Below are positions 2,398 to 48,357 of a stretch of DNA of 64,000 nucleotides, piece by piece. The notes under the pieces were generated by a model that saw nothing but the letters and a program-made list of their open reading frames with translations, ran no database searches and was not told the DNA's origin. The translations under genes and the position numbers were made by a program. Source of the stretch: Cellulomonas chitinilytica (GTDB taxonomy: Bacteria; Actinomycetota; Actinomycetes; Actinomycetales; Cellulomonadaceae); the NCBI RefSeq assembly GCF_016862675.1, contig NZ_BONK01000002.1, forward strand, positions 310,001 through 374,000, in the 5' to 3' direction. Each line of letters begins with the position of its first letter. Position 1 is the first letter of the stretch.

Positions 2398-5763
<3,366 letters not shown>

Positions 5764-28242: not shown

Positions 28243-28267
28243 GGTGACTCCTTCGGGTGTGGGCGTG

Positions 28268-29592: not shown

Positions 29593-29720
29593 GGTGGCTC
29601 CAGGTCGGCGTCGGAGCCGGGCGGCGGGGACCGTCCGGCTCGTCCCGGGGGCGTCCCCGCGACTCACGGGAGCGCCGGCCCGCCTGCCGGGTCAGACGGC
29701 GGTGCTCAGATGCGGGCCGC

Positions 29721-29769
29721 ACATTCGGTGGCGGACCCCGTCGTGTCAACGGTCCGGCGCCCACGTCTC
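29721..29769 (-). promoter_or_regulatory. promoter with GAGACG element, nitroreductase operon
   Basis: On the minus strand: GAGACG (29769-29764), 14 nt, TTGACA (29749-29744), 17 nt, GAATGT (29726-29721). It matches three other promoters of the region in motif and exact spacing. The GAGACG element probably binds an activator just upstream of the -35 box (inference). Confidence 0.7.
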
Positions 29770-29850
29770 ACATCGCGGGAAGTCCGGCCCGTGCGCTGGT
29801 CAGGGCGCCCGGGCGCTGCACACTCGCGCCTCTTCGAGAGGGGGCGGCAC

Positions 29851-31161: not shown

Positions 31162-31208
31162 GACGACCCGGACGATCCGTTGACTTGCCCCGGGACGCCA
31201 CCTACGGT
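31160..31208 (+). promoter_or_regulatory. promoter with GAGACG element, aminotransferase operon
   Basis: GAGACG (31160-31165), 14 nt, TTGACT (31180-31185), 17 nt, TACGGT (31203-31208). It overlaps the end of the preceding monooxygenase gene. The leader to the ATG at 31345 is about 130 nt and contains short GC hairpins (for example CCCGC-ACCT-GCGGG); a short GTG frame with one Cys codon overlaps the ATG. Confidence 0.7.
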
Positions 31209-31344
31209 CCGCGGCCGGTCGACGAGTCCCGCCGTCTGGCTCGGCAGGTGGGACGGCAGCCCGCACCTGCGGGGGCTCCCGGGCACGACCCGTGCGACCA
31301 CCGACCTCCGGCCGCACGTGCGCTCCCAGGAAGGCGTCCAGCCG

Positions 31345-32562: not shown

Positions 32563-32591
32563 CACCCCGACACCCCCTGGGAGCACCCTGC

Positions 32592-33719: not shown

Positions 33720-33728
33720 GGAGCTCCC

Positions 33729-35069
33729 GTGCCCGACACCCCCGACGTGCCCCGCCCGCACGCGCACGTCCACCTCGGCGTCTTCTTCCAGGGCGTCAAC
33801 CACACGACCATCTGGTCGGACCCCGCGAGCGGGTCGCAGACCGACTTCGAGACGTTCCGCCGCGTCGCGCAGACCGCCGAGCGCGGCCTGTTCGACGCGT
33901 TCTTCCTCGGCGAGGGCCTGCGGCTGCGCGAGCAGAACGGCCGGCTGCACGACCTCGACGTCGTGGGCCGCCCGGACGCCATCACCCAGCTCGCGGCGCT
34001 CGCCGCGGTCACGACGCACATCGGTCTCGTCGCGACGCAGAACGTCACGTACAACGACCCGGCCGACCTGGCCCGCCGGCTCGCCAGCCTGGACGTGCTG
34101 TCCGGCGGCCGGGCCGCGTGGAACATCGTCACGACCGACAACGCGTGGACGGGTGAGAACTTCCGCCGCGGCGGGTGGCTCGACCACTCCCAGCGGTACA
34201 CGCGGGCCGCCGAGTTCGTGCGGGCGGTGCAGGCGATCTGGGACGGCTGGGACGCGCCGGAGCCGGTCCGCGCCACGGGTGGCACGCTCGACATCGAGGT
34301 CACCCCGACCGTCCCGCGCACCGCACAGGGCCATCCCGTGCTGTTCCAGGCGGGCGACTCCCCCGACGGCCGCGACTTCGCCGCCGGGCACGCCGAGGTG
34401 ATCTTCTCCGCGCACGGAACGGACTTCGACGACGCCCTCGCGTTCGCGACCGACGTCCGCGCGAGGACCGTGGCCGCCGGACGCCCGGAGGACGACCTCA
34501 AGATCCTCCCGGGCACGCAGTTCGTGCTCGCCGCCACGGACGCCGAGGCCCGCGACAAGGCCCGCTGGGTCAAGGAGCAGCAGGTCACGCCGGCCACCGC
34601 CCTGTCGCTGCTCGGGCAGGTCTGGGGCGAGGACCTGTCGCACTACGACCCGGACGGGCCGCTCCCGGCGCACGACCCCGTCATCGAGGTGATCGGCGAG
34701 ACCCGCGGCTCACCGCGCCGCGGCAAGCGGCCGCACGAGATCGCGCAGGCGTGGCGGGCGCGGGCCGAGGCGGAGCACCTGACGATCCGCCAGCTCGTCA
34801 TCGCCCAGGAGCGCGAGCGCGGGTTCGTCGGGTCGCCGTCGACCGTCGCCGACGAGCTCGTGCGGTGGGTGCGCCACGGCGCGTCCGACGGGTTCAACAT
34901 CACGCCGTGGCTCGTGCCGAGCGGGCTGGACGACGTCGTCGACCTGCTCGTCCCCGCGCTGCAGGAGCGCGGCGCGTACCGCACGGCGTACACCGGCACG
35001 ACCCTGCGGGAGCACCTGGGCCTGCGGGCGCCGCTGACCCACCGCGTGGCTGCCGCCGCGCAGGTCTGA
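33729..35069 (+). CDS. NtaA/SnaA/DszA-type flavin monooxygenase
   Basis: A 446-residue LLM monooxygenase of the large NtaA/SnaA type. Signatures: LGVFFQGVNHTTIWSDPASG, GLVATQNVTYNDPADLARRL, LDVLSGGRAAWNIVTTDNAW, TAQGHPVLFQAGDSPDGRDF and DGFNITPWLVPSGLDDVVDL. GTG 33729 follows the previous stop by 9 bp with GAGG nearby. It is the last gene of the plus-strand unit, followed by a strong terminator. Confidence 0.88.
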   Translation: MPDTPDVPRPHAHVHLGVFFQGVNHTTIWSDPASGSQTDFETFRRVAQTAERGLFDAFFLGEGLRLREQNGRLHDLDVVGRPDAITQLAALAAVTTHIGLVATQNVTYNDPADLARRLASLDVLSGGRAAWNIVTTDNAWTGENFRRGGWLDHSQRYTRAAEFVRAVQAIWDGWDAPEPVRATGGTLDIEVTPTVPRTAQGHPVLFQAGDSPDGRDFAAGHAEVIFSAHGTDFDDALAFATDVRARTVAAGRPEDDLKILPGTQFVLAATDAEARDKARWVKEQQVTPATALSLLGQVWGEDLSHYDPDGPLPAHDPVIEVIGETRGSPRRGKRPHEIAQAWRARAEAEHLTIRQLVIAQERERGFVGSPSTVADELVRWVRHGASDGFNITPWLVPSGLDDVVDLLVPALQERGAYRTAYTGTTLREHLGLRAPLTHRVAAAAQV

Positions 35070-35079
35070 CACCGCACGA

Positions 35080-35117
35080 CGAAGGGGCGGGGCCGTTCGA
35101 TCGGCCCCGCCCCTTCG
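35080..35117. terminator. bidirectional terminator between convergent operons
   Basis: CGAAGGGGCGGGGCC pairs perfectly with GGCCCCGCCCCTTCG (15 bp) around an 8-nt loop. It lies between convergent genes ending at 35069 and 35128 and can serve both. Confidence 0.9.
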
Positions 35118-35127
35118 CGCACACGGG

Positions 35128-35913
35128 TCAGGCGGGCACCCACCGCCCGACCCAGGCCGTCGCGAGCGCGGCGACCTCGTCCTGGTGCTCGACGAACGTG
35201 TGCTCGGCGCCGGCGACGACCTCGACCCGCGAACCTGCGGGCAGCAGGTGCGCACCGGCCGCGGTCGTCGCCGCCAGCCGGGTCTCGGAGCCCCGGTCGC
35301 CGTGCACGACGAGCACCGGCACGCGCAGCGCGCCGAGCAGCTCCTCCTGGGTGCCCGTCGCGCCGACCTTGGGCCGCAGCCGGGACACCGTGACGTGCGT
35401 CCGCGCCCCCGGGGTCGTGACGGGCAGGTGCACATCGTCCCCGCGGTGCCACGCCTCGACCTGCTCGGTGGTGAGGAACGGGTACGGGGTCACCCCCGAC
35501 CCGGCGCCCGTGAGCGCACCCGTGAGCACGAGCGTCGCGACCGCGGGCCGTTCGGGCGCGACGCGCAACGACACCGCCGACCCGAGGCTGTGCCCGTGCA
35601 GGACCTGCCGGGTGTAGCCGAGACCGTCGAGGTGGTCGAGCACGGACCGCAGGTCGTCGAGCAGGTGGTCGCCGACGACGACGTCGCCCTCCGACTCGCC
35701 GAAGCCGCTGAAGTCGTACCGCAGCACGGCGTGGCCGAGGGCGGCGTACTCGGCGGCGAGCCGGTCGAACCGGCCTCCCGCACGGCGGTCGGACAGGAAC
35801 CCGTGGGACAGTACGACGACGCTGTCCCCCGCGCCCGGGGTGAACGTCACCGCGAGCGCCGCGCCGCTGCGGGACCGCAGCCGCAGCTCGTCGTCGACGG
35901 TGGTCGCCGTCAT
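35128..35913 (-). CDS. alpha/beta hydrolase
   Basis: A 261-residue alpha/beta hydrolase. The nucleophile elbow is GHSLGSAVSLRVAP, the oxyanion region VVVLSHGFLSDRRAGGRFD, and a terminal catalytic His is in AGAEHTFVEHQ; the acid is likely in VVHGDRGSE. The ATG overlaps the previous stop by one base (TGATG). It is the last gene of the operon starting with the leader peptide near 42.7 kb. It may cleave an ester or amide formed during sulfur salvage (inference). Confidence 0.83.
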   Translation of the reverse strand: MTATTVDDELRLRSRSGAALAVTFTPGAGDSVVVLSHGFLSDRRAGGRFDRLAAEYAALGHAVLRYDFSGFGESEGDVVVGDHLLDDLRSVLDHLDGLGYTRQVLHGHSLGSAVSLRVAPERPAVATLVLTGALTGAGSGVTPYPFLTTEQVEAWHRGDDVHLPVTTPGARTHVTVSRLRPKVGATGTQEELLGALRVPVLVVHGDRGSETRLAATTAAGAHLLPAGSRVEVVAGAEHTFVEHQDEVAALATAWVGRWVPA

Positions 35914-37226
35914 CAGACCCCCAGGTTCCCGCGGAGCGTCGTGCCCGCGTACTCGGTCTTGTAGACGCCGAGCCGCTGCAGGTGCGGCACGACGGCCCGG
36001 CCGAACTCGTCGAACGAGCCCGGGAAGTGCGTCGGCGTGACGAGGAACCCGTCGGCCGCGCCGGACAGGAACAGCTCCGCGAGCTGGTCGGCGATCTCGG
36101 CACCCGTGCCGACGAGCTGCGGGGTGAGCTCGCTCGTCGAGAACTCGATCGCGGCCTCCGCGATCGTGGCGGTCCGCAGCCGCGACCCGAGCAGCTCGTT
36201 GAGCGCCACGACGGCCCGGCCCTCGGCCTGGCCCTGCGTGGCGCGCTCCTCGAGCACCTTCACGTAGGGCTCGTCGAGGGAGACGTCGCCGAGGTCGAGC
36301 CGGGAGAACTGGCTGAAGAACTCGACGCCGGCCTCCGGCGTGACGAGCGTGCGCAGGTGGTCGCGCCGCGCGCGGGCGATCTCCGTCGTCTCGCCGACGA
36401 TCGGCTGCACGGCGGCGAACAGCTTGATCTTCTCCGGGTCGCGGCCGACCGCCGTGGCCTTGGCCCGCAGGTCGTCCTTCTTCGCCTGCAGGTCCGCCTG
36501 GGTCCGCTCGATCGCGAAGATCACCTCGCCCCAGCGCGCGCCGAACGCACGACCACGAGGCGAGTCGCCGGCCTGGATGATGACCGGCCGGCCCTGCGGG
36601 GTGGGCGGCAGGTTGAGCGGGCCGCGCGTCGCGACGTAGGTGCCCTTGTAGTCGGGCACCGTGATGCGGGCCGGGTCGGCGAACAGGCCGGTCTGCTGGT
36701 CCGCGACCAGCGCGTCCTGACCCCACGAGTCCCACAGCACCGTGACGGCCTCGACGACCTCGTCGCCGCGGTCGTACAGCTGGTCCCGGTCGAGCTGCTC
36801 GACCTCCGGGAAGTTCGCGTAGTTCGCCGGGCCGTTGGACTGGATGACGTTCCACGCGACCCGGCCGCCCGACAGGTGGTCGAGGCTCGCGAGCGTCCGG
36901 GCCAGGTTGTACGGCGGGTTGAAGCTCGTCGACAGCGTCACGCCGATACCGAGGTGCGTGGTGACGGCGGCGATCTGCGCGGCGATCTGCGCGGGGTCGT
37001 GCTTGATCGCGTTGCTGAGGCCGTGCCGGGCGAACCCGGCCCGGAAGCTCACCGTCTCCGGGATGAACGCGAGGTCGAACTTCGCGGCCTCGAGCGTGCG
37101 GGCCAGGTCGTGGAACGTCTGCGGGCCGAGCCAGTCCCGCGTCGAGTAGGGGTGGCGCCACGCGCCGGCGAAGTGCCCGCCGGGGAACAGCACGTAGCCG
37201 CCGAGGAAGAGCTGCCGCTGGGTCAT
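35913..37226 (-). CDS. NtaA/SnaA/DszA-type flavin monooxygenase
   Basis: A 437-residue LLM monooxygenase of the NtaA/SnaA group. Signatures: FLGGYVLFPGGHFAGAWRHP, GIGVTLSTSFNPPYNLARTL, LDHLSGGRVAWNVIQS, TPQGRPVIIQAGDSPRGRAF and ADGFLVTPTHFPGSFDEFGR. It follows the importer's binding protein after 28 bp. Likely oxidises the compound imported by the adjacent ABC system. The ATG at 37226 begins the conserved N-terminus. Confidence 0.9.
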   Translation of the reverse strand: MTQRQLFLGGYVLFPGGHFAGAWRHPYSTRDWLGPQTFHDLARTLEAAKFDLAFIPETVSFRAGFARHGLSNAIKHDPAQIAAQIAAVTTHLGIGVTLSTSFNPPYNLARTLASLDHLSGGRVAWNVIQSNGPANYANFPEVEQLDRDQLYDRGDEVVEAVTVLWDSWGQDALVADQQTGLFADPARITVPDYKGTYVATRGPLNLPPTPQGRPVIIQAGDSPRGRAFGARWGEVIFAIERTQADLQAKKDDLRAKATAVGRDPEKIKLFAAVQPIVGETTEIARARRDHLRTLVTPEAGVEFFSQFSRLDLGDVSLDEPYVKVLEERATQGQAEGRAVVALNELLGSRLRTATIAEAAIEFSTSELTPQLVGTGAEIADQLAELFLSGAADGFLVTPTHFPGSFDEFGRAVVPHLQRLGVYKTEYAGTTLRGNLGV

Positions 37227-37254: not shown

Positions 37255-38841
37255 TCAGGCCCGGCCGACTTCCTGCGCGTAGAGGTAGCGGGACGGGCGC
37301 GGCTCCCACGTCACGGCGCGGGAGATGACGGCCGTGAACGGCGACGGGTACAGGAACACCGTGTGCGCCTCGTCGTAGTAGTTCTGCACGGCCTCGTCGA
37401 CGAGCTCGCGCTGCGCCTTCTCGTCCGTCGCGGCCTGGAGCCGGCGCACGAGGTCGTCGAACGTCGGGGCGACGACGTCGCTCTGGATGTGGTCGCTCGT
37501 GAACGGGTCGAACAGCTGGAACCCGTCGCGGTACTGGCCGCCCCACATGATGTAGACGAGGTCGGCGCCCTTCTGCACGTCGCCGTACTGCCGGTCGATC
37601 CACGCCGGGAACGGCGTCTGCGTGATCGTGAGCTTCACGCCGACCTCGGCCCACTGCGCGGCGATCGCCTGCGACGCCAGGTCCGCGGAGACGTACGTGC
37701 CGGACGGCACGTCGACCTCGAGGCTGAACCCGTCGGCGTAGCCCGCCTCCGTGAGCAGCTTCTTCGCCTTCTTCGGGTCGTACGGGTACGCCTTCACGTC
37801 CGGGTCCTCCTGCTGGTACGGCTCGAAGAGCACCTGCCCGGGCAGCGGCTCGACGGCGTCCTTGAAGAGGCCGTGGATGATCGTCTTCTTGTCCGTCGCG
37901 TAGTTCAGGGCCTGCCGCACGCGGACGTCGGCCAGCGGCGTGCCGGTCTTCTCCTCGTTGATCGCGAGGACGAGCGGCTGGGGCCCGACGCCGAGGATCG
38001 TGTCGTACGTCGTCGAGTCCTCGAACGCGTCGAGGCTGAGCGGCTCGACGTTGAGGACGATGTCCGCCTCACCGGCCTGGATCGCCGCGACGCGCTGCGC
38101 CTCGGACGCGAGCACCGTGTACTTCACGCTGCTGAACTGCGGCTTCGGGCCGGCGTAGTGCGGGTTGAGCGAGAGGGTCGCGCCGTTCTCGAGGTCGAGC
38201 TGGTCGATCTTGTACGGGCCGCTGCCGAGGGACTCGGTGTCGATGTTGTGGGACTGCGCGAACGTCGGGTCGACGATGTAGTCGTTCCACAGGCGGCCCG
38301 GCAGGTCGATCGCGGGGGCCGTGAGGTGGAACAGGATCGTCGTCGGGTCGGGCGAGGTCACGGACCCGACGAACTTGCGCAGCGGAGCGCCCGACGTCCC
38401 CTTGTAGTTCGGGTCGAGGAGCTGCTGGAAGTTCCAGACGATCGTGTCGGCGGTGAGCGGCGTCCCGTCCGAGAACACCGCGTCGGTCCGGATCGTGAAC
38501 GACCACTCCAGGTCGGAGAGCTGCTTCCACGAGGTCGCGAGCGACGGGACGACCTCGGTCTCCGGCGAGATCGCCGTCAGGGCCTCGTACACCGACCCGA
38601 CGACCGCGCCCTGGCTGTCGGGCGAGCCGCCCTTGTGCGGGTTGACGCTCGTGAGCTGCCGGGACAGCACCAGGCGGAGCTGGTCGCCGGCCGTCGGGCG
38701 CGGGCCGGTGGCCTCCTGCGAGGCGGACGGCGAGCCGGACGAGTCGGCGGCGCACGCCGCGAGGGTCGCGGCGAGGGCGACCGCGAGCGCGGCGGTGAGT
38801 GCTGCGGCGAGGGATCGTCGGCGGCGGAGGGGGTTGTTCAC
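37255..38841 (-). CDS. ABC importer substrate-binding lipoprotein, family 5
   Basis: A 528-residue lipoprotein of the peptide/nickel (SBP_bac_5) family. Lipobox LAATLAACAAD, then a Ser/Pro linker, then family motifs NPHKGGSPDSQGAVVGSVYE, FSDGTPLTADTIVWNFQQLL and VRQALNYATDKKTIIHGLF. GTG 38841 has AGGAA upstream. It is encoded after the ATPase and permeases of the same system and before a monooxygenase, so the ligand is probably an organosulfur compound or a short peptide. Confidence 0.9.
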   Translation of the reverse strand: MNNPLRRRRSLAAALTAALAVALAATLAACAADSSGSPSASQEATGPRPTAGDQLRLVLSRQLTSVNPHKGGSPDSQGAVVGSVYEALTAISPETEVVPSLATSWKQLSDLEWSFTIRTDAVFSDGTPLTADTIVWNFQQLLDPNYKGTSGAPLRKFVGSVTSPDPTTILFHLTAPAIDLPGRLWNDYIVDPTFAQSHNIDTESLGSGPYKIDQLDLENGATLSLNPHYAGPKPQFSSVKYTVLASEAQRVAAIQAGEADIVLNVEPLSLDAFEDSTTYDTILGVGPQPLVLAINEEKTGTPLADVRVRQALNYATDKKTIIHGLFKDAVEPLPGQVLFEPYQQEDPDVKAYPYDPKKAKKLLTEAGYADGFSLEVDVPSGTYVSADLASQAIAAQWAEVGVKLTITQTPFPAWIDRQYGDVQKGADLVYIMWGGQYRDGFQLFDPFTSDHIQSDVVAPTFDDLVRRLQAATDEKAQRELVDEAVQNYYDEAHTVFLYPSPFTAVISRAVTWEPRPSRYLYAQEVGRA

Positions 38842-38908
38842 GGGATTCCTGCTCTCGGGGTGCGGCGGGTCGCCGGTCGGCGACCCGGGTGACGGGGACG
38901 GGGACGGG

Positions 38909-40570
38909 TCAGGCGAAGGCGCGACCGGGGACGGCGTCCACGAGCGCACGCGTGTAGGGGTGCTGCGGGTCCTCCAGGACGGCCTCGGTGCGGCCCCGCT
39001 CGACGACGCGGCCGTGGCGCAGCACCACGACGTCGTCGCAGAGGAACCGCACGACGCCGAGGTCGTGGGAGATGAACAGGTAGGTCAGGCCGCGTTCGGC
39101 GCGCAGCCGCGCGAGCAGCGCGAGGATCCGGGCCTGCACGGACAGGTCGAGCGCCGAGACCGGCTCGTCCGCGACGACGAGCGTCGGCTCGCTGGCCAGG
39201 GCCCGGGCGATGCCGACGCGCTGCCGCTGGCCGCCGGACAGCTCGTCGGGCCGGCGGTGCCGGAACGCGCGGGGCAGCTCGACCTCGTCGAGCAGCTCGT
39301 CGACACGCCGGTCGACCCCGCCGCGCGGGAGGTCGACGTGGTTGAGCTCGAGCGGCTCGCGGAGGGTCTGCGCGACGGTCAGCCGGGGGTCCAGCGACGC
39401 GTAGGGGTCCTGGAACACGTACTGCACGTGCCGCCGCCAGTCGCGGCGCTGCCCCCGGTTCTGCGCCCGCAGGTCCGTGCCCTCGAACTCGACGGACCCG
39501 TGGTCGGCGGTCTCCAGGCCGGTGACGATGCGGGCGAGCGTCGTCTTCCCGGACCCGGACTCCCCCACGATGCCGAGCGCCTGGCCGCGTGCGACGGTGA
39601 GGTCGACGCCGTCGAGCGCGGCGTGCCGCACCCGTCCGCCCGGTCCCCGCACCGCGAACGACCGGCGCAGGTCGCGGACGACGAGCTGCGGGGACTCATC
39701 GGCCGCCACCGCGACCGGCGTCCGGGTCAGCCGGCTCGGCACCGCGGCGAGGAGCCGCCGCGTGTACTCGTGCTGCGGGTCCGCGAGCACGTCGTGCGTC
39801 GGGCCGGACTCGACGACGACGCCGCCCGACATCACGTGCACGTGCTCGGTCCGGTCGGCGATGACGCCGATGTCGTGGCTGACGAGCAGCACGCCGAGGC
39901 CGAGCCGCGCCCGCAGGTCGTCGATGAGGTCGAGCACCTGGGCCTGCACGGACACGTCGAGCGCGGTGGTCGGCTCGTCGGCGATCAGGAGCTGGGGCGA
40001 GCGGGCCAGCGCGATCGCGATGACGACCCGCTGGTTCAGGCCGCCCGAGAGCTCGTGCGGGAACGCGGCGAGCGTCTTGTCGACGTCGTCGATCCCGACG
40101 AGCCGCACCAGCTCGGCCGCACGGTCCGCTGCGTCGCGACGGGCCGTCCCGGCCGGCAGCGCGTCCCGGAGCTGCGTCCGGATGCGCAGCCGCGGGTTGA
40201 GCGACGGCGTCGGGTTCTGGAAGACGACGCCGAGGTGCCCGCTCAGGTGGGCGCGCGCCTCCCGTTCGGGCAGCCCGAGCACCTCACGCCCGGCGACGTC
40301 CACGGTGCCGCCCTGCACGTGCACGGCGGCCGGCAGGAGCCCGGCGACCGCGAGCGCCGTCAGGGTCTTGCCCGACCCGGACTCCCCGACGAGCCCGACG
40401 CTCTGCCCCGGTCGCACGGTGAGGTCGACGCCGCGCACGAGCGGCAGCGCGTCCGGCGGCTCGTGCCGCTGGGGACGCAGGCCGACGACGAGGTCGCGGA
40501 CGACGAGCGTCGGTGCTGCGGTCCCGGGAGCGGTCCGCTCGGTGAGGGCTGTGCTCGTGTCAGTGCTCAT
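38909..40570 (-). CDS. ABC importer ATP-binding protein, two fused NBDs
   Basis: A 553-residue fusion of DppD- and DppF-like ATPases. First domain: Walker A GLVGESGSGKTLTALAVAG, signature ELSGGLNQRVVIAIALA, Walker B LLIADEPTTALD. Second domain: GIVGESGSGKTTLARIVTG, ELSGGQRQRVGIARALA, LVVADEPVSALDLSVQ. Both carry the peptide-transporter C-terminal extension (HEYTRRLLAAVP and HPYTRALVDAVP). The ATG at 40570 overlaps the permease stop. Confidence 0.93.
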   Translation of the reverse strand: MSTDTSTALTERTAPGTAAPTLVVRDLVVGLRPQRHEPPDALPLVRGVDLTVRPGQSVGLVGESGSGKTLTALAVAGLLPAAVHVQGGTVDVAGREVLGLPEREARAHLSGHLGVVFQNPTPSLNPRLRIRTQLRDALPAGTARRDAADRAAELVRLVGIDDVDKTLAAFPHELSGGLNQRVVIAIALARSPQLLIADEPTTALDVSVQAQVLDLIDDLRARLGLGVLLVSHDIGVIADRTEHVHVMSGGVVVESGPTHDVLADPQHEYTRRLLAAVPSRLTRTPVAVAADESPQLVVRDLRRSFAVRGPGGRVRHAALDGVDLTVARGQALGIVGESGSGKTTLARIVTGLETADHGSVEFEGTDLRAQNRGQRRDWRRHVQYVFQDPYASLDPRLTVAQTLREPLELNHVDLPRGGVDRRVDELLDEVELPRAFRHRRPDELSGGQRQRVGIARALASEPTLVVADEPVSALDLSVQARILALLARLRAERGLTYLFISHDLGVVRFLCDDVVVLRHGRVVERGRTEAVLEDPQHPYTRALVDAVPGRAFA

Positions 40571-41481
40571 CGGGCGGCTCCGTGGTTGCCGGGGCGGCCC
40601 GTGCCGAACCGCTCCGCGAGTCCGTCGCCCAGCAGCTGCAGGCCGACGATGGTGACGATCAGTGCGAGGCCCGGGAACAGCGCGAGCCACGCGGCGGTGG
40701 ACAGCCGGGCCTGGCCGGCGGCGACCATCTGCCCCCAGTCCGGCTGCGGCGGCTGCACGCCGAGGCCGAGGAAGCCGAGGCTCGACTCGAGCAGCAGCAC
40801 CGCGGACGCACTGAGGGTCACGGCGACGAAGAACAGCGGCAGCACGCTGGGCAGCAGGTGCCGGCGCCCGACGTCCCACCGCCCGGCCCCGGCGACACGG
40901 GCGGCCTCCACGTACGGCTGCCGGACGACGGCCCGTGCGTGCCCGCGGATCACCCGGAACGTGAGCACCCACGCGCCGAGCACGAGCACCGCGACGAGCG
41001 GCACGAACGAGTTCCCGACGAACGAGAGGATGACGATCGCGAGCACGATGGTCGGGACGGCGAGCTGAACGTCCGCGAGGCGCCCGGCGACGGCGTCGAC
41101 GGCCCCGCCGAACAGCGCCCCGGCGACGGCGAGCCCGAGCCCGAGGACGGCGGCGACGAGGCTCGCGACGGCGGTGATCGCGAGCGCGGACCGCCCGCCG
41201 AACACGACGCGGGTGAGCAGGTCGCGGCCGAGCTCGTCGGTGCCGAACGGGTGCGCGGCCGACGGTGCCTGCAGGATCGCGGTGAAGTCCTGCGCGAGCG
41301 GGTCCCCGACGAGCACGGGAGCGGCGATGGTCACGAGCACGACGACGCCGAGCACGACCGCCCCGGCGACGCCCGCGGCCCCGAGTGTCCGCCGGCGGCG
41401 CGACAGGCCGACGTCGGAGGCGGCGGGGTGCGTCGCGGTGGGCGCGTCCTCGACGAGGATCGCGGCGATCTCGGTGGTCAT
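40567..41481 (-). CDS. ABC importer permease, DppC-like
   Basis: A 304-residue membrane protein of the peptide/nickel permease family. N-terminal span (LGAAGVAGAVVLGVVVLVTI), then the family block HPFGTDELGRDLLTRVVFGG, five more membrane segments and the ATPase-contact loop EAARVAGAGRWDVGRRHLLP. The ATG overlaps the stop of the DppB-like gene (ATGA). Confidence 0.92.
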   Translation of the reverse strand: MTTEIAAILVEDAPTATHPAASDVGLSRRRRTLGAAGVAGAVVLGVVVLVTIAAPVLVGDPLAQDFTAILQAPSAAHPFGTDELGRDLLTRVVFGGRSALAITAVASLVAAVLGLGLAVAGALFGGAVDAVAGRLADVQLAVPTIVLAIVILSFVGNSFVPLVAVLVLGAWVLTFRVIRGHARAVVRQPYVEAARVAGAGRWDVGRRHLLPSVLPLFFVAVTLSASAVLLLESSLGFLGLGVQPPQPDWGQMVAAGQARLSTAAWLALFPGLALIVTIVGLQLLGDGLAERFGTGRPGNHGAAR

Positions 41482-42476
41482 GAGCGCAACCTCGGTTCGA
41501 TGACGGCGGCGAGGACGTCGACGAGCAGGTTGATCAGCACGAAGCCGACGGCGATCACGAGCACGCAGACGATGACGAGCGGGTAGTCGCGGTTCTGCAC
41601 GGCGTTGATGGAGAGCTGGCCGATCCCGGGCCAGCCGAAGATCGACTCGGTGACGACGGCGCCGCCGAGCAGCACGCCGGCCTGGATGCCGACGACGTTG
41701 AGCGTGGTGCCGAGCGAGTTGCCGACCACGTGCCGGCGCAGCAGACGCCCCCGTCCGATCCCGGTGGCCCGCGCGGTGCGCACGTGGTCGGCGTGCAGCA
41801 CGTCGACCAGCGCGGTGCGGAACACGCGCGCCACGGCCGGCACGAACGCGACCGCCAGGGTGAGCCCGGGCAGGACCAGTCCGAGCGGACCGGTGGACCC
41901 CGTGGCCGGGAGCCAGCCGAGCCAGACGGCGAGCACGAGGGTGGCGAGGATGCCGAAGAAGAACGTGGGGATGCCGTCGAGCGCGACGGCGATGCTCAGC
42001 GGCACCCGTCGCGTCCACACGGACCGCCCGGTCGCGGACAGGTACCCGATCGTGCCTCCCACCAGCACGCCGAGCGTGAGACCGACCGCGCCGAGCTCCA
42101 GGCTGGCGCCGAGCCGCTCCAGGGCGATGGGCACCGGGTCGGCGCCGTACCGGATCGAGTCGGGGAAGTTCCCGCGCAGCACCTGGCCGAGGAACGTGAC
42201 GTACTGCTCCGGCACCGGGCGGTCGAAGCCCATGAGCCGGGTGAGCCGTTCGGCCTCCTCCGGCGGGGCGTCGGGCGCGACGAGCAGCAGGGCGGGGTTG
42301 CCCGTCGAGTAGAGGGCGAAGAACACCAGGGTGACGGCGCCCCACACGGCGACGAGGCCGGTGAGCAGCCGGCCGCCGAGGTAGCGCGGGCTGAGCGGGA
42401 GGCGCAGGCCGCGCAGCCACGCGACGAGCGCGGTGAGCGTCGGCGGAGCCGCGGGTCGGGCGTCGAGAAGTGCCAC
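41478..42476 (-). CDS. ABC importer permease, DppB-like
   Basis: A 332-residue membrane protein of the peptide/nickel permease family. Motifs: LLTGLVAVWGAVTLVFFALY in the first span, GFDRPVPEQYVTFLGQVLRG, and the EAA-type loop VRTARATGIGRGRLLRRHVV. GTG 42476 was chosen because AAGGA lies about 8 nt upstream; the longer frame runs into the attenuator region. It is the first large gene of the operon downstream of the cysteine leader peptide. Confidence 0.9.
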   Translation of the reverse strand: MALLDARPAAPPTLTALVAWLRGLRLPLSPRYLGGRLLTGLVAVWGAVTLVFFALYSTGNPALLLVAPDAPPEEAERLTRLMGFDRPVPEQYVTFLGQVLRGNFPDSIRYGADPVPIALERLGASLELGAVGLTLGVLVGGTIGYLSATGRSVWTRRVPLSIAVALDGIPTFFFGILATLVLAVWLGWLPATGSTGPLGLVLPGLTLAVAFVPAVARVFRTALVDVLHADHVRTARATGIGRGRLLRRHVVGNSLGTTLNVVGIQAGVLLGGAVVTESIFGWPGIGQLSINAVQNRDYPLVIVCVLVIAVGFVLINLLVDVLAAVIEPRLRS

Positions 42477-42531
42477 GGGAGGTCCTTGGAGGCAGGCCCG
42501 AGCGAGGTCGGGAGAGGGAGCGCGCACGGCT

Positions 42532-42605
42532 CCGCGGTCGTGCGGGAGCGGGCGGCGGCGCGGGACCGCGGGGACGAACGCTGCGGCCCTCGGTCAGCCG
42601 AGGGC
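42532..42605 (-). promoter_or_regulatory. attenuator-like hairpins after the leader peptide
   Basis: Two hairpins lie between the leader peptide stop and the DppB-like start: GCCCTCGG-CTGA-CCGAGGGC (42605-42586) and a larger one with CCGCGGTC/GACCGCGG arms (42571-42532). With the Cys codons of the leader just upstream they form a plausible attenuator in which ribosome stalling changes folding. No U-run is visible, so termination could be Rho-dependent or the control translational. Confidence 0.55.
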
Positions 42606-42625
42606 GGATGCGTCGCGACGAGGCG

Positions 42626-42709
42626 TCAGCGGCAACACGGCGCGCAGTGCGCGGGGTGCGCACGGCGTGCGCGGAGCAGCGGCAGGGCCGTGCGGGTGTG
42701 CGTCGACAT
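42626..42709 (-). CDS. cysteine-rich leader peptide
   Basis: A 27-codon frame with a perfect GGAGG 6 nt before its ATG. The peptide is Arg/His-rich (MSTHTRTALPLLRARRAH) and ends HCAPCCR just before the stop, giving three Cys codons in the last six. Cys-rich upstream peptides controlling sulfur genes through ribosome stalling are established in Actinobacteria. Here the peptide precedes an importer operon with monooxygenase genes and is followed by hairpins. Low cysteine would stall ribosomes and allow operon expression (inference). Confidence 0.75.
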   Translation of the reverse strand: MSTHTRTALPLLRARRAHPAHCAPCCR

Positions 42710-42829
42710 GGAACGCCTCCGGAGGGGCGGCTCAGCCTGCGGCGACGAGTGCCGCGGGTCTGGTGTGCCCGGGGGCACCCCGTGGGGTGCTGCGCCACCA
42801 GCCGAGCGCTGACGGTGACGCGGTGCCGG

Positions 42830-42878
42830 AAGTTAGGTGGGCCGGACGGGAAGGTCAACGGCCCCGAGAGGGCGTCTC
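42830..42878 (-). promoter_or_regulatory. promoter with GAGACG element, leader peptide/importer operon
   Basis: On the minus strand: GAGACG (42878-42873), 14 nt, TTGACC (42858-42853), 17 nt, TAACTT (42835-42830). Transcription would start near 42823 and reach the leader ATG after about 115 nt. Confidence 0.8.
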
Positions 42879-42940
42879 GCCATCCGGGATCCGGTGCCTG
42901 AGCCGACGGATTTCATGCGGCGCCACATGGCGAGACGCCC
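42870..42940. promoter_or_regulatory. perfect 14-bp inverted repeat between divergent promoters
   Basis: GGGCGTCTCGCCAT (42870-42883) and ATGGCGAGACGCCC (42927-42940) are exact reverse complements. Each arm lies 11 nt from the -35 box of its own divergent promoter. The arrangement suggests two activator sites in mirror image, one for each importer operon. The rest of 42710-43022 shows no gene. Confidence 0.7.
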
Positions 42941-42980
42941 GAGGCGATGCCTTGACCGGCCTGCACGTCCGCCCTACTTT
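42932..42980 (+). promoter_or_regulatory. promoter with GAGACG element, second importer operon
   Basis: GAGACG (42932-42937), 14 nt, TTGACC (42952-42957), 17 nt, TACTTT (42975-42980). The leader to the ATG at 43023 would be about 36 nt, so the in-frame ATG at 42915 lies upstream of the transcript start and is not used. Confidence 0.8.
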
Positions 42981-43022
42981 CCGGCGTCCCCGAGGAACCG
43001 CACCCCCGAACCCTGGAGCACC

Positions 43023-44018
43023 ATGACCCGCTACCTGGCCGTCCGCCTGGCCCAGGCGCTCGGCGTCCTGTGGGCGGCGTACACGGTCTCGTTCGTGGTC
43101 CTGTACGCCCTGCCCGGCGACCCCGTGTCCCTGCTGTACGGCGGCGACTCGAGCGACATCTCCCCCGAGCAGCTCGCCGCGGTGCGTGCGGAGTACGGGC
43201 TCGACCGGCCGCTGCCCGTGCAGTACCTGACCCAGCTCGGGCACGTCCTGCAGGGCGACCTGGGGACGTCCGTGGTGAACGGCCGGCCGGTCACGGACCT
43301 CGTCGCGGAGGCCGTCCCGCCCACGGCGCAGATCGCCGCGCTCGGACTGGTCCTCGCGCTCGTCCTCGGCGGCGGGCTCGCCATCGTCGCGACGTACGTA
43401 CGCAGCCGGGCGCTCTCGCACACGCTGCTGTCGCTGCCCCCGCTCGGGGTCGCGATCCCGTCGTTCTGGTTCGGCCTCACGCTCGTGCAGTGGTTCTCCT
43501 TCACGTTCCCGGTGTTCCCCGCGGTCGGGAACAAGGGGTTCGCGTCGCTCGTGCTCCCGGCGATCACGCTCGCGCTGCCCACCGGGGCGCTCGTCGCGCA
43601 GATGCTGTCGCGCAGCCTGCTCGGCACCCTGCACGAGCCCTGGGCGGACACCGCGCGGGCGAAGGGCGCCGGCCGGGTCCGCGTCCACCTGCGGCACGCG
43701 CTGCGCAACGCCGCCCTCCCCACGCTCACCGTCACGGGACTCGTGATCGGCGGTCTGCTGTCCGGCGCGGTCGTCACCGAGACCGTGTTCTCACGCGCGG
43801 GACTCGGCCGGCTCACCGCGACGTCGGTCGGAGCCCAGGACGTCCCGGTGGTGCAGGGCATCGTGCTCTTCGCCGCGACCGTGTACGTGCTGGTCAACCT
43901 CCTCGTGGACGTGCTGTACCCGCTGCTGGACCCGCGGATCGTGCGGGTGCGGCGGCCACGCGCGGCCGCCGCGCCGACTGGCCCAGCCGGTGAGCCGGCG
44001 CTGGTGGGTGCCGCATGA
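43023..44018 (+). CDS. ABC importer permease, DppB-like
   Basis: A 331-residue inner-membrane protein of the peptide/nickel permease family. Motifs: AYTVSFVVLYALPGDPVSLL, EYGLDRPLPVQYLTQLGHVL and the ATPase-contact loop DTARAKGAGRVRVHLRHALR. The ATG at 43023 has GGAG about 6 nt upstream. It is the first gene of a second complete importer, divergent from the one at 35-42 kb. Confidence 0.92.
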   Translation: MTRYLAVRLAQALGVLWAAYTVSFVVLYALPGDPVSLLYGGDSSDISPEQLAAVRAEYGLDRPLPVQYLTQLGHVLQGDLGTSVVNGRPVTDLVAEAVPPTAQIAALGLVLALVLGGGLAIVATYVRSRALSHTLLSLPPLGVAIPSFWFGLTLVQWFSFTFPVFPAVGNKGFASLVLPAITLALPTGALVAQMLSRSLLGTLHEPWADTARAKGAGRVRVHLRHALRNAALPTLTVTGLVIGGLLSGAVVTETVFSRAGLGRLTATSVGAQDVPVVQGIVLFAATVYVLVNLLVDVLYPLLDPRIVRVRRPRAAAAPTGPAGEPALVGAA

Positions 44019-44950
44019 CCGCCGTCGACGCGCTCACCCCGCTCGCCGACCCGACCGCGGACCGGAGCGCACCCGGCGACGCCGGGGTCCGTGGCCGGGA
44101 CGAGGACCTCGTCGCCCGCCACGTCTGGCGCGGCCGGCTCGCCGACGTCCTGCGGCGCCCCGGGCTCCTCGTCGCGCTCGTGTGGGCCGGGCTCGTGCTG
44201 GTCGCCGCGTTCGCGCCGCACGTCCTCGCGTCCGGCGACCCGCTCACGGGCGTCCCGGCCGACAAGCTGCAGGGCCCGTCGGGCTCGCACTGGTTCGGTA
44301 CCGACCAGCTCGGCCGCGACCTGTTCACGCGGGTCGTGCACGGCACGCACCTGACGCTCGAGGCGGCCCTGGTCGCCGTGGGCGTCGGGCTCGTGGTCGG
44401 CTCCTTGCTCGGGCTGCTCGCCGGCTTCGTCGGCGGCGTGCTCGACGACGTGGTCATGCGCACGGTCGACGTGCTGCTCTCCATCCCGTCGCTCCTGCTG
44501 TCCCTCGCGCTCATCACCGCGCTCGGGTTCGGCACGATCAACGTCGCGGTCGCCGTCGGCCTCGCGAGCGTCGCGTCCGTCGCCCGGATCATGCGCTCCG
44601 AGGTGCTCCGGGTCCGCACGTCCGTGTACGTCGAGGCCGCGCACGCCGGCGGCAGCCGGTGGTGGTCGGTGCTGTTCCAGCACGTGCTGCCGAACTCGGC
44701 CGGTCCCGTCGTCGTGCTCGCCGCGCTGGAGCTCGGCGCCGCGATCCTCGCCGTGTCCGCCCTGAGCTTCCTCGGGTACGGCGAGCCGCCGCCCGCCCCC
44801 GAGTGGGGCGCGCTGGTCTCCGGCGGGCGCGACTACCTGCGCACGTCCTGGTGGCTCACGACGCTGCCGGGCCTGACGATCGCCGCGAGCGTGCTCGCCG
44901 CCGGTCGCATCTCACGCGCCCTCGACGGCGACCGGGCAGGTGCCCGATGA
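44015..44950 (+). CDS. ABC importer permease, DppC-like
   Basis: A 311-residue permease. A long polar N-terminus (about 45 residues) precedes the first span (GLLVALVWAGLVLVAAFAPH). The family block HWFGTDQLGRDLFTRVVHGT and the EAA-type loop VEAAHAGGSRWWSVLFQHVL are present, plus YGEPPPAPEWGALVSGGRDY near the end. Its ATG overlaps the previous stop (ATGA). Confidence 0.92.
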   Translation: MTAVDALTPLADPTADRSAPGDAGVRGRDEDLVARHVWRGRLADVLRRPGLLVALVWAGLVLVAAFAPHVLASGDPLTGVPADKLQGPSGSHWFGTDQLGRDLFTRVVHGTHLTLEAALVAVGVGLVVGSLLGLLAGFVGGVLDDVVMRTVDVLLSIPSLLLSLALITALGFGTINVAVAVGLASVASVARIMRSEVLRVRTSVYVEAAHAGGSRWWSVLFQHVLPNSAGPVVVLAALELGAAILAVSALSFLGYGEPPPAPEWGALVSGGRDYLRTSWWLTTLPGLTIAASVLAAGRISRALDGDRAGAR

Positions 44951-46611
44951 GCGAACGCCTGCTCACCGTCGCGGACCTCGCGGTCACGTACCGCACGCGG
45001 CACGGCGACGTCCGCGCGGTCAAGGACGTGTCCCTGCACGTCGACGCCGGCGAGACCGTCGCGCTCGTCGGCGAGTCGGGCTCCGGCAAGTCCACGACGG
45101 CCGCGGCCGTCGTCCGGCTGCTCGCGGACGGCGCCCGCATCGAGCGCGGCACCGTCGACCTGCTCGGGCACGACGTCGCGCACGCCTCCCCCCGCACGCT
45201 GCAGGCCGTCCGTGGCCGGCTCGTCGGGCTCGTGCCGCAGGACCCGACCGTGTCGCTCAACCCGGTCCAGCGGATCGGCGACCAGGTCGCCGAGGTCCTG
45301 CGGATCCACGGGCTCGTGGGCCGTCGCGGCGCCGTGGTCGCCGCCGTCGAGGCGCTCCGGGCCGCCGGCCTGCCCGACCCGGAGGTCCGCGCACGGCAGT
45401 ACCCGCACGAGCTGTCCGGAGGCATGCGGCAGCGAGTCCTCATCGCGATCGCGCTCGTCGCGAAGCCGCGCCTGCTCGTGGCCGACGAACCGACCAGCGC
45501 GCTCGACGTCACCGTGCAGCGCCAGATCCTCGACCACCTCGAGACCCTCACGTCGGGGACCGGGACCGGCATCCTGCTCATCACGCACGACCTCGGGGTC
45601 GCCGCCGACCGGGCCGACCGCATCGTCGTGATGTCGCAGGGACGCGTCGTCGAGCACGGCACCCCGGACGCCGTCCTCGGGTCGCCGCAGGACGCGTACA
45701 CGCGGGCGCTGCTCGCCGCCGCGCCGAGCCTGCGCGGCGCACGGGTCCGGCCGCGGGTCGCCTCGGCGAGCAGCACGACCGGACCGCCCACGGTCGACCC
45801 CGCGGTCGGCCCCGTGCTCGAGGTCCGGCACCTCGTCAAGGACTTCGCGCTCCCCCGGTCGGCGGGTGGCGGCCGGCTGCGCGCCGTCGACGACGTGTCG
45901 TTCGCGCTGCCCCGAGGACGCACGCTCGCCCTCGTCGGCGAGTCCGGGTCCGGCAAGTCGACGACCGCGCGCCTCGCGCTGCGCCTCACCGACCCGACGT
46001 CCGGCACGGTCCTCGTCGACGGTCAGGACGTCACCGGCACGCACGGCGAGCACCTGCGTGCGCTGCGGCGGCGCATGCAGGTCGTGTACCAGAACCCGTA
46101 CGCGTCGCTCGACCCGCGCTGGTCCGTCGAGCGCATCGTCACCGAGCCGCTGCGAGCCTTCCGCGTCGGCGACCGGCGCACCCGCGCCGCCCGTGCGGCC
46201 GAGCTCCTCGACGTCGTCGCGCTGCCCGCCACGGCGCTGCAGCGCCGGCCGGCCGAGCTGTCGGGCGGCCAGCGGCAGCGCGTCGCCATCGCCCGCGCGC
46301 TCGCGCTCCAGCCGGAGGTCGTCGTGCTCGACGAGCCGGTCTCCGCGCTCGACGTCTCGGTCCAGGCGCAGGTCCTGGACCTGCTCGCCGGCCTGCAGGA
46401 AGGGCTCGGGCTCAGCTACCTGTTCATCTCGCACGACCTCGCGGTGGTCCGTCAGGTGGCCCACGAGGTCGCGGTGCTGCAGCACGGCCGGGTCGTCGAG
46501 CAGGGGGCCGTCGAGGCCGTCTTCGCGGACCCCCGGGCGGAGTACACGGCCGAGCTGCTGTCCGCGATCCCCGGGGCCCGCGTCCGCGCCACCACCGGAG
46601 GTGCGCGATGA
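44947..46611 (+). CDS. ABC importer ATP-binding protein, two fused NBDs
   Basis: A 554-residue DppD-DppF-like fusion. First domain: ALVGESGSGKSTTAAAVV, signature ELSGGMRQRVLIAIALV, LLVADEPTSALDVTVQ. Second domain: ALVGESGSGKSTTARLAL, ELSGGQRQRVAIARALA, VVLDEPVSALDVSVQ. Both Walker A, Q-loop (VPQDPTVSLNP and VYQNPYASLDP) and H-loop elements look intact. Starts at ATG 44947, overlapping the permease stop. Confidence 0.93.
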   Translation: MSERLLTVADLAVTYRTRHGDVRAVKDVSLHVDAGETVALVGESGSGKSTTAAAVVRLLADGARIERGTVDLLGHDVAHASPRTLQAVRGRLVGLVPQDPTVSLNPVQRIGDQVAEVLRIHGLVGRRGAVVAAVEALRAAGLPDPEVRARQYPHELSGGMRQRVLIAIALVAKPRLLVADEPTSALDVTVQRQILDHLETLTSGTGTGILLITHDLGVAADRADRIVVMSQGRVVEHGTPDAVLGSPQDAYTRALLAAAPSLRGARVRPRVASASSTTGPPTVDPAVGPVLEVRHLVKDFALPRSAGGGRLRAVDDVSFALPRGRTLALVGESGSGKSTTARLALRLTDPTSGTVLVDGQDVTGTHGEHLRALRRRMQVVYQNPYASLDPRWSVERIVTEPLRAFRVGDRRTRAARAAELLDVVALPATALQRRPAELSGGQRQRVAIARALALQPEVVVLDEPVSALDVSVQAQVLDLLAGLQEGLGLSYLFISHDLAVVRQVAHEVAVLQHGRVVEQGAVEAVFADPRAEYTAELLSAIPGARVRATTGGAR

Positions 46612-46658
46612 GCACCTCGTGTCGTTGCGGCCTGCGTCGCACCCCGACGAACGCCTGA
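46608..46658 (+). CDS. 16-codon Cys-containing ORF before the binding protein gene
   Basis: MSTSCRCGLRRTPTNA, with an ATG overlapping the ATPase stop by 4 nt, so ribosomes could restart there. Two Cys codons are spaced by one residue. A GC-rich hairpin-forming region follows before the binding protein ATG at 46732. It may be an intercistronic leader adjusting binding protein synthesis to cysteine; equally it could be a chance ORF. Confidence 0.35.
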   Translation: MSTSCRCGLRRTPTNA

Positions 46659-46731
46659 CCCCGGGCGCGCGTCGGCCCACGCCGGCCGGCCCCGCACGTC
46701 CCGCCTGCCCCCGTCACACCCAGGAGCACCC

Positions 46732-48357
46732 ATGTCCTACGCCCGCCCCTTGCGCGCGCTCGCCCTCCTCACCGCCGCCGGCCTCGCGCTCGCCGCCTGC
46801 TCCGCAGGCTCCGACTCCGCCGGCACCGACCCGTCCGCCTCGGCGTCGGCCGACGCCCCCGTCGACGGCGGCGACCTCACGTTCGCCATCGGCAACGACC
46901 CGATCTCCGTCAACCCGAGCGGCATCGGCTCCGGCAACGACACGCTGTACGTGACCCGCCAGGTCGTCGACTCCCTGATCTGGCAGGACCCCGAGGACGG
47001 CAGCCTCAAGCCGTGGCTCGCCACCGACTGGACCGTGAACGACGACTCGACCGAGTTCACGTTCACGCTGCGCGACGGCGTGACGTTCTCCGACGGCACC
47101 CCGTTCGACGCGGCGTCCGTCAAGGCGACGTTCGACGACATCGTCGCCGCCGGCGCCAAGAGCAGCGCCGCCCCGTCGTTCATCGGCTACACCGGCACGA
47201 CGGTCGTCGACGACCACACGGTCACCGTCGCCTTCTCCACCCCGAACGCCCCGTTCCCGCAGGCCACGTCCGCCGCCGCTCTCGGCATCGTCGCAGCCTC
47301 CACGCTCGCGATCCCGTACGACCAGCGCTCGACGGGCGTCGGCGTCGTCGGCACCGGCCCGTTCACGATCGACCACTACACCAAGGACGTCGAGACCGTC
47401 CTCAAGGCCCGCGACGACTACGCGTGGGGCCCGGACGGCGCGTCCGACGCCCCGCACCTCGACTCCGTGACGTTCCAGGTCATCCCCGAGGCCGGCGTCC
47501 GCACCGGCGCCCTCACCTCGGAGCAGGTCGACGTCATCGGCGGCGTGCAGCCCACCGACATCGCCACGCTCGACCAGGCCGGCTTCCCCGTCGTCAGCCG
47601 CGCCAACCCGGGCATCGTGTTCGGCGTGACGTTCAACGAGTCCAGCCCGGTCGGCAGCGACCCGGCGGTGCGCGAGGCCATCTCGCTCGCCGTCAACCCG
47701 ACCGAGATCCGCGACACCGCCCTCGTCGACGGGTTCGCCGTCGCGGAGAGCCCCCTCGCCAGCACCACCCCGGACGTCGTCGACCTCAGCAAGGACCTCG
47801 TCACCGACCCGAAGAAGGCCGCGTCGGTGCTGGAGGCCGACGGATGGGCGAAGGGCTCCGACGGCATCTACGCCAAGGACGGCCAGCGCCTCGCACCGAC
47901 CCTCGTCTGGATCACCAACTTCAGCCCCAACGAGACGTCCGTGCAGCTCATCCAGCAGGAGCTCAAGGCCGTCGGCATCGACGTCACCCTCTGGAGCGGC
48001 ACCGTCCCCGAGTTCCAGGACAAGCTGAAGACCGGCGCGTTCGACCTCGTCTGGGGCAACCTGTCGCGCGCCGACGGCGACGTCCTGCGCACCCAGTACT
48101 CGACGACCGCGACGAACTTCTACCGGATCGCCGACCCCGAGCTCGAGTCCCTCCTCCAGGCACAGCTCGCCGAGGGCGACCCCGCGAAGCGCTCGACGAT
48201 CCTCGCCGACGCCCAGGAACGGCTCGTCACCGAGCACCACGTCGTGCCCGTCCACGAGCTCACCACGTTCCTCGGGCTCTCCACCGACGTGCACGGCGTG
48301 GTCCTCGGCGCCGACTCCCGCCTGGGCCAGCTCACGGGGGCGTGGCTCACGAAGTGA
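46732..48357 (+). CDS. ABC importer substrate-binding lipoprotein, family 5
   Basis: A 541-residue lipoprotein of the peptide/nickel binding family. Signal peptide and lipobox (LTAAGLALAACSAG), a Ser/Ala/Asp linker, then LTFAIGNDPISVNPSGIGSG, TLRDGVTFSDGTPFDAASVK and VREAISLAVNPTEIRDTALV. The ATG at 46732 has AGGAG about 7 nt upstream. It completes the second importer and is followed by a terminator. Ligand unknown. Confidence 0.92.
   Translation: MSYARPLRALALLTAAGLALAACSAGSDSAGTDPSASASADAPVDGGDLTFAIGNDPISVNPSGIGSGNDTLYVTRQVVDSLIWQDPEDGSLKPWLATDWTVNDDSTEFTFTLRDGVTFSDGTPFDAASVKATFDDIVAAGAKSSAAPSFIGYTGTTVVDDHTVTVAFSTPNAPFPQATSAAALGIVAASTLAIPYDQRSTGVGVVGTGPFTIDHYTKDVETVLKARDDYAWGPDGASDAPHLDSVTFQVIPEAGVRTGALTSEQVDVIGGVQPTDIATLDQAGFPVVSRANPGIVFGVTFNESSPVGSDPAVREAISLAVNPTEIRDTALVDGFAVAESPLASTTPDVVDLSKDLVTDPKKAASVLEADGWAKGSDGIYAKDGQRLAPTLVWITNFSPNETSVQLIQQELKAVGIDVTLWSGTVPEFQDKLKTGAFDLVWGNLSRADGDVLRTQYSTTATNFYRIADPELESLLQAQLAEGDPAKRSTILADAQERLVTEHHVVPVHELTTFLGLSTDVHGVVLGADSRLGQLTGAWLTK

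Follow-up and report, generated by a model that had tools for sequence, protein, structure and literature searches.

Genes and features at the locus

The window analysed here, meaning the whole 64-kb stretch of DNA, carries on its minus strand an operon for an importer and a monooxygenase. Upstream of the operon lie a short cysteine-bearing open reading frame (ORF) and an RNA element that appears to derive from a SAM-IV riboswitch. In the order of transcription, the features are:

42853..42858, minus strand: predicted -35 element, TTGACC, from the sequence; TTGACC also lies upstream in G029, G032 and G450
42830..42835, minus strand: predicted -10 element, TAACTT, after a 17-nt spacer, from the sequence; TACGTT holds the equivalent position in each of these relatives
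42762..42830, minus strand: putative SAM-IV-derived RNA element, by model R1
42792..42821, minus strand: P2 hairpin, GCGTCACC / GGTGGCGC with loop GTCAGCGCTCGGCT, by pair conservation
42767..42807, minus strand: pseudoknot PK1, GCTCGG (42807-42802) with CCGGGC (42772-42767), by covariation
42716..42720, minus strand: Shine-Dalgarno sequence of the leader, GGAGG, 6 bases 5' of the ATG
42626..42709, minus strand: cysteine leader ORF, MSTHTRTALPLLRARRAHPAHCAPCCR-stop, by sequence and related leaders
42477..42625, minus strand: C-rich spacer from leader to first gene (C 0.50, G 0.29), a possible Rho loading region
41478..42476, minus strand: ABC permease of the Dpp/Opp/Nik type, first gene of the operon
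40567..41487, minus strand: second ABC permease
38909..40567, minus strand: ABC ATPase, in two matched stretches
37255..38865, minus strand: family-5 solute-binding protein
35913..37226, minus strand: NtaA/DmoA-family FMN-dependent monooxygenase (TIGR03860, 418 bits, cut-off 279.7)
35128..35907, minus strand: alpha/beta hydrolase

The first permease gene starts with a GTG at 42476, preceded by AAGGA at 42487-42483 (minus strand), and is separated from the leader ORF by 149 nt. From the predicted promoter at 42858-42830, transcription would start near 42825, about 115 nt 5' of the leader ORF; a strict consensus promoter scan did not call the TTGACC-17-TAACTT arrangement. Judging from the monooxygenase family and the neighbouring genes, the substrate of the operon would contain sulfur, and the operon would serve to take up an organosulfur compound and cleave it oxidatively.

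Luciferase-like monooxygenase genes occur at 25015-26169 (minus), 29743-31161 (plus), 32592-33719 (plus), 33729-35069 (plus) and 35913-37226 (minus), with a nitroreductase-family gene at 28738-29592 (minus) among them. The region from 25015 to 37226 is an island of probable organosulfur genes.

The leader ORF and its relatives

The leader ORF runs from an ATG at 42709 to a stop at 42626 on the minus strand, comprises 27 codons and ends in HCAPCCR, its Cys codons being, in order, TGC, TGT and TGC. The earlier note had described such a short ORF with a good ribosome site and this C-terminus, naming no strand, and that description holds. In a scan of both strands of the window, this ORF was the sole match to a rule that asks for an ATG start, a length of 10-55 codons, a Shine-Dalgarno-like site and two or more Cys among the last 10 codons. 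Among 2000 shuffled copies of the 546-nt gap, 0.15% contained an ORF of this kind with at least two Cys, and none contained one with at least three. A search for an NCBIfam match to the leader peptide found none. Clustered Cys codons near the stop, 5' of an operon, are characteristic of Cys leader-peptide attenuators, as is conservation of those codons in an otherwise variable peptide, and both are found here.

The second of these traits emerges from the relatives of the operon. A permease matching at E below 1e-150 is present in 4 of 81 genus genomes (the window's own, G450, G029 and G032); the matches in two further genus genomes, with E of 1e-63 to 1e-65, were not counted as the same gene. 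The permeases of the three relatives are 79-83% identical to that of the window. All four operons are preceded by a Shine-Dalgarno-led short ORF with a Cys-bearing end (CAPCCR, VACCRA, CCPAVACCR and VCRACRR), and in the three relatives' leaders, MTTPITAQVALGRTTPVLVACCRA, MSKHHHLTAMRCCPAVACCR and MTTSSRWTTAPTPAPRVCRACRR, the Cys near the stop are kept and the remainder is not. That the peptide outside the Cys codons is not conserved is what one would expect of a chance ORF in GC-rich spacer DNA, but this explanation is hardly credible given the uniqueness of the ORF in 64 kb, its complete absence from the shuffles at three or more Cys, and the retention of Cys near the stop in every one of the four genus genomes with the permease. 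Among the 396 genomes of a phylum sample, a permease at E of 1e-90 or below was found in the window's own genome only.

A putative SAM-IV-derived RNA element upstream of the leader

Between the predicted promoter and the leader lies an RNA element that the earlier note missed, as it did the intact SAM-IV riboswitches paired with Cys leaders in relatives (below). Its P2 stem keeps 8 of 8 pairs in all four sequences, with 4 pairs changed on both sides. PK1, a pseudoknot of 5-6 bp between the P2 loop and a downstream strand, has 95.8% of cells paired and one pair with a double change. For P2 and PK1 together, 98.2% of cells are paired across the four sequences, against 30-50% when the strands are slid. 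Three of 500 shuffles reach this on four measures and 128 of 500 on a fifth (further pair types); these statistics are modest, as they involve four sequences and a structure read from the same sequences.

A P2 stem with a PK1 pseudoknot is typical of SAM-IV, and the window element resembles SAM-IV (RF00634) further in the similar loop of P2 and in a similar promoter-to-aptamer layout. It differs from SAM-IV in lacking the GCAACC/GGGGTGC core, a clear P1 and an Rfam SAM match. In 42400-43100, no Rfam SAM match was found at E of 10 or below (the SAM-IV gathering score is 38 bits), the only matches being three weak and unrelated ones, and a SAM-IV search of the window's own genome at the same threshold did not list the element. 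Neither the SAM-IV core GCAACC / GGUGC nor the GAG of J1/2 is present in the element, which reads GCACCCC / GGGGTGC and has no GAG before P2. In SAM-IV, the core bases and the GAG before P2 contact SAM.

Model R1, built from the window element and its three relatives with only the P2 stem as structure, also matches, with E-values per genome of 4e-7 to 3e-5, sites that Rfam calls as SAM-IV; these E-values are rough, and most weaker R1 matches look like chance. The recovery of Rfam SAM-IV sites by R1 supports a common origin, and we read the window element as a SAM-IV that lost or changed its ligand. In G464 (L384), the element is kept (63.1 bits with R1) together with a leader, MSKHHPLAAPRCCPAAHACCR; this was not counted as an intact operon because the permease match downstream of the leader spans only 65 residues. 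The permease remnant there adjoins a nitroreductase-type stretch, apparently after a deletion. A second site in G032 has a weaker element match (35.4 bits, E 3.8e-4), a leader MIQALAPLAHRPARRTPCPPACPSARCR and then an NtaA/DmoA monooxygenase.

The window also contains a second SAM-IV-like element, at 31217-31326 on the plus strand (19.3 bits, gathering score 38), with an altered core GGCAGCCC/GGGGGCTCC, which precedes a class I/II aminotransferase gene at 31345. What is apparently the same aminotransferase gene is preceded by a full SAM-IV in G032 (68.9 bits), G002 and G466, and by an element with an altered core and no Rfam match in G450 (C305:5930).

Tandems of SAM-IV riboswitches and cysteine leaders

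Both modules were looked for in the five top-ranking named relatives of the permease (L005-L009). In Nakamurella (L008; permease 69% identical), an intact SAM-IV of 95.3 bits is followed by a Cys leader, MTHEPRGLLTSRRRVVDLLQTASSLCCQHRW. The listing of short ORFs of L009 contains no Cys-rich one. In L005-L007, no short ORF could confidently be called a leader, and no SAM-IV was found at the gathering score. By eye, possible single-Cys leaders with the Cys near the end of the ORF can be seen in Pseudonocardia (L006, SLTQRRFIDHGTVHSASCRLH; L007, TLTQRRFIDHGTVNSASCRTR). Pseudonocardia kujensis (L006) has SAM (S-box, RF00162) matches at 1429-1522 and 5098-5187 (minus); they score 53.0 and 44.7 bits, and the permease lies on the other strand.

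SAM-IV (RF00634) was matched in 76 of the 81 genus genomes. The pairing of SAM-IV with Cys leaders was surveyed in 161 loci: 101 genus sites picked from among the matches listed and not at random (30, plus 60 lower-scoring, plus 11), 59 sites from a phylum sample (all non-own sites among the matches listed) and L008. A leader was called where an ATG-started ORF, 10-55 codons long, had a Shine-Dalgarno-like site, carried two or more Cys in its last 10 codons and began between -10 and +130 nt from the aptamer end. For L319, L325 and L248, in which the GCAACC anchor failed, the listed position was used, and the aptamers of L316 and L317 are longer.

By this rule, 31 of the 161 loci have a leader (28 of the 101 genus loci, L008, L272 and L312), although the tandem leaders are related to one another and the counts are thus not independent. 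Shuffled downstream regions of the 161 loci gave a mean of 0.14 leaders and a maximum of 1 over 50 runs. Applied to other residues, the rule was satisfied in 32 (Arg), 16 (Ala), 13 (Pro) and 11 (Ser) of the 161 loci, and in 23 of the 32 loci found for Arg the ORF is one already counted as a Cys leader.

An N-terminal motif belonging to a single luciferase-like monooxygenase group occurs downstream of all 26 genus leaders with a readable gene, 22 called by a strict motif and four (L231, L235, L237 and L250) by a looser one; for the two others, the sequence stops short, 234 nt (L229) and 372 nt (L241) past the aptamer. The strict motif is found in 22 of the 161 loci, all with a leader. The tandem monooxygenase of the window's own genome, the only copy tested with HMMs, scores above the cut-off for PF00296 and below it for TIGR03860. 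Counting against the tandem reading, SAM-IV precedes related-motif monooxygenase-type genes with no leader at a minimum of three loci, L233, L333 and L335, and L368 looks like a fourth.

The median distance from the aptamer to the leader ATG is +31.5 nt (2 to 47, n=28 genus loci). In leaderless genus loci, it is the gene start that is found at about this distance, with a median of +34.5 nt (start called in 66 of 73 loci), a figure that retains several plainly wrong far-downstream start calls. The leader ATG thus occupies the usual position of the riboswitch's output start, a placement that suggests the leader as the target of the riboswitch.

SAM-IV also precedes Cys-bearing short ORFs and genes of other kinds. 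At L185 (G025:C2:150471-150586), a SAM-IV is followed by a GTG-started Cys ORF, MRCANEHRLRRCSCAAF, and then by a gene of the sodium:dicarboxylate symporter family; the ORF, which falls outside the rule and was not counted, is a possible Cys leader before another importer. At L272 and L285, from another family of the class, a SAM-IV precedes short Cys ORFs, MCARFAHSLLIVCRC and MCIHQAHSRRFVCRR, and a downstream gene resembling that of an O-acetylhomoserine sulfhydrylase. At L311 (G236:C23:2278-2391), a SAM-IV is followed by an ORF ending in ARRRHIDLKRSTSSFCRA and then by a lipoprotein-like gene; this single-Cys end is leader-like and similar to that of the L008 leader.

Codon use and constraint in the leaders

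Codon use sets the Cys codons of the leaders apart from those of genes. TGT accounts for 80 of the 103 Cys codons in 33 genus leaders (28 tandem and five of the window type, G464 among the latter) and for 5 of 53 in genes, a sample made up of 24 window ORFs taken as genes by composition and the monooxygenase genes (Fisher 6.7e-17, a value that overstates the evidence because the leaders are related). Other NNT two-fold codons do not occur in the leaders at all (0 of 44), so the TGT excess is not a matter of loose codon use. It is the tandem leaders that carry the effect, with a TGT share of 72 of 88 compared with 8 of 15 in the five window-type leaders. This rare-TGT signature offers a simple way to find further such leaders in GC-rich bacteria.

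Seven aligned tandem leaders have lengths of 34, 30 and 24 codons, multiples of three apart, with frame and stop kept. Among leaders of equal length, changes at the three codon positions number 55, 34 and 57 (summed over 19 overlapping pairs). No third-position excess is seen in these, which implies that the peptide is weakly constrained apart from its Cys codons.

The output step

The earlier note had read the locus as cysteine-responsive attenuation by ribosome stalling, with two hairpins before the first permease gene. Both hairpins are indeed present in the minimum-energy fold, with arms at 42613-42578 and 42581-42522, as they would be in a trp-type attenuator, where alternative hairpins form and one of them is an intrinsic terminator released by ribosome stalling. 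However, the 164-nt hairpin region folds no better than shuffled sequence does (z = -0.92, with 31 of 200 shuffles equally or more stable), no terminator-like site was found, and the longest T run is 2 in the window's leader-to-gene spacer and 3 across 27 spacers, those of this leader and its relatives. The stable hairpin and U-tract of a classical intrinsic attenuator are thus missing from this region, an intrinsic terminator is not supported, and the trp-type reading appears very unlikely. Of the original proposal, the sensing half is supported, as Cys codons are kept in relatives and TGT-rich leaders recur before monooxygenase genes in the genus; the attenuator half, as drawn, is not.

It may be instead that control is translational, the ribosome site of the first gene being masked except while a ribosome is stalled on the leader. 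Translation attenuation has been described for the polycysteine sORFs of M. smegmatis, according to the account in PMC13236596, which cites Canestrari et al. 2020. Against this, the gene start region is predicted to be about equally accessible in all the leader states modelled (means 0.509, 0.530, 0.533 and 0.522 at 22 loci), so that folding lends a structural switch, and direct masking of the first gene's ribosome site in particular, no support; the spacers, at 121-347 nt, are also long for direct masking. Translational attenuation is possible and somewhat doubtful.

The composition of the spacers points in a third direction, namely that a finished round of leader translation exposes a C-rich spacer to Rho, and that stalling prevents this. 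All 27 spacers are C-rich and G-poor, as the transcribed spacer of a Rho-dependent attenuator should be, with a C over G skew of 0.16 to 0.36 (mean 0.284, n=27; the spacers of the 22 tandem loci were measured to a conserved motif inside the gene and so include its first codons), against a mean of 0.055 in 50 upstream gaps from the window and five neighbour loci. The four window-type operons fall within the top six of these 50 gaps, but two other gaps, those of the window gene at 46732 (plus) and of a divergent gene in G029, score as high. Rho-type control has been weakly predicted for mycobacterial cys leaders, in the part of Seliverstov et al. 2005 (PMC1262725) that bears on them. The argument for Rho is one of composition, however, and a stalled ribosome would shield only the first bases of the spacer. 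Rho-dependent termination, with something just short of an even chance, is ranked first, translational control second and an intrinsic terminator as less likely, all with uncertainty.

Proposed mechanism

From its sequence and that of its relatives, 42532-42709 is probably a cysteine-sensing leader behind a SAM-IV-derived RNA, controlling an operon for organosulfur import and oxidation. The leader itself is very probably a real cysteine sensor, of a known kind. With charged Cys-tRNA in short supply, the leading ribosome would pause just short of the stop, on the Cys codons (TGC..TGT TGC), and this would allow expression of the operon; with cysteine plentiful, the ribosome would finish the leader and expression would fall. 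The output step would lie in Rho-dependent termination within the C-rich spacer, or in translation control, sooner than in an intrinsic terminator.

The leader is probably the second of two modules, the first being a SAM-IV riboswitch that is intact in relatives. Their geometry suggests that the start codon on which SAM-IV acts has become that of the Cys leader, and that SAM would gate the reading of the leader. In the window, the first module would have kept P2 and the pseudoknot and lost its SAM-contacting core, which would probably leave the Cys leader as the main sensor. A fuller version, in which SAM-IV controls translation of the Cys leader, stalling in the leader controls the gene, and the window SAM-IV is re-specialised for another ligand, is speculative and, on balance, unlikely. 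If such a serial gate were true, organosulfur genes would be expressed only under a joint shortage of SAM and cysteine. If the main, two-module reading is right, two unlike sensors of one pathway, an RNA that binds a metabolite and a ribosome that reads codons, would be joined on a single mRNA leader into a two-input RNA gate, with the start codon of the second lying at the usual site of action of the first. The leader could also mark those monooxygenase-transporter operons that serve sulfur supply.

Comparison with known systems

Canestrari et al. 2020 reportedly call the mycobacterial polycysteine sORFs leaderless in their title. The window ORF is unlike such sORFs and does not seem to have a leaderless start: it has a Shine-Dalgarno sequence, and the promoter predicted some 120 nt upstream would give it about 115 nt of leader RNA. 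It resembles the actinobacterial Cys leaders that, in the relevant part of Seliverstov et al. 2005 (PMC1262725), precede cys operons and cbs and have no obvious intrinsic terminator: here too, a short ORF with Cys near its stop lies before sulfur genes and such a terminator is not obvious. It differs from those cys-operon and cbs leaders in preceding an importer-monooxygenase operon and in lying behind a SAM-IV-derived element.

The earlier note had stressed a leader on an importer instead of a biosynthesis gene. This is right for the window operon and not new in itself, for the leader annotated before metNIQ in S. lividans ends in CMCRRMCAF; it is listed as methionine-dependent in Table 4 of PMC8079986 and may be a cysteine leader.

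The nearest published mechanism found is the B12 riboswitch of M. tuberculosis, which controls an upstream ORF, PPE2 being translated mainly by termination-reinitiation (Kipkorir et al. 2024, PMC11260477, in the portion consulted). There, as proposed here, upstream ORF translation within a riboswitch leader controls the gene; no codon-specific sensing is described in that portion, whereas the upstream ORF of the window would carry a cysteine input. A SAM-I riboswitch that also senses uncharged initiator tRNA (PMC7270179, as excerpted) similarly brings SAM together with a signal tied to translation within one leader, but does so as a single tRNA-responsive RNA with no leader peptide.

No description of a Cys leader placed behind a SAM-IV riboswitch was found in the portions consulted of the riboswitch and leader-peptide literature, which includes PMC1262725, PMC9094748, PMC13236596, PMC8079986, PMC12452182, PMC3890552, PMC11260477, PMC3774663, PMC3766115, PMC9373788 and PMC12121999; Canestrari et al. 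2020 may mention one. The SAM-IV and Cys leader tandem and the SAM-IV-derived RNA of the window are thus put forward as new and worth testing, the Cys leader itself being known.

The divergent operon and its upstream region

A second Dpp/Nik-type importer is encoded divergently at 43023-48357 (plus). The corresponding divergent operon of G450 has a full SAM-IV of 92.6 bits; in the window, there is no SAM match in 42400-43100. An operator-like 12-mer, GGCGAGACGCCC, was tried as a genome-wide regulon marker and dropped, with 4 matches against 4 for the reversed control and hence no enrichment. A perfectly matched inverted pair of 14 bp, GGGCGTCTCGCCAT/ATGGCGAGACGCCC, at 42870-42883 and 42927-42940, lies upstream of the two divergent promoters and looks like an operator; a similar sequence, GCGAGACGC, is present at the corresponding place in G450.
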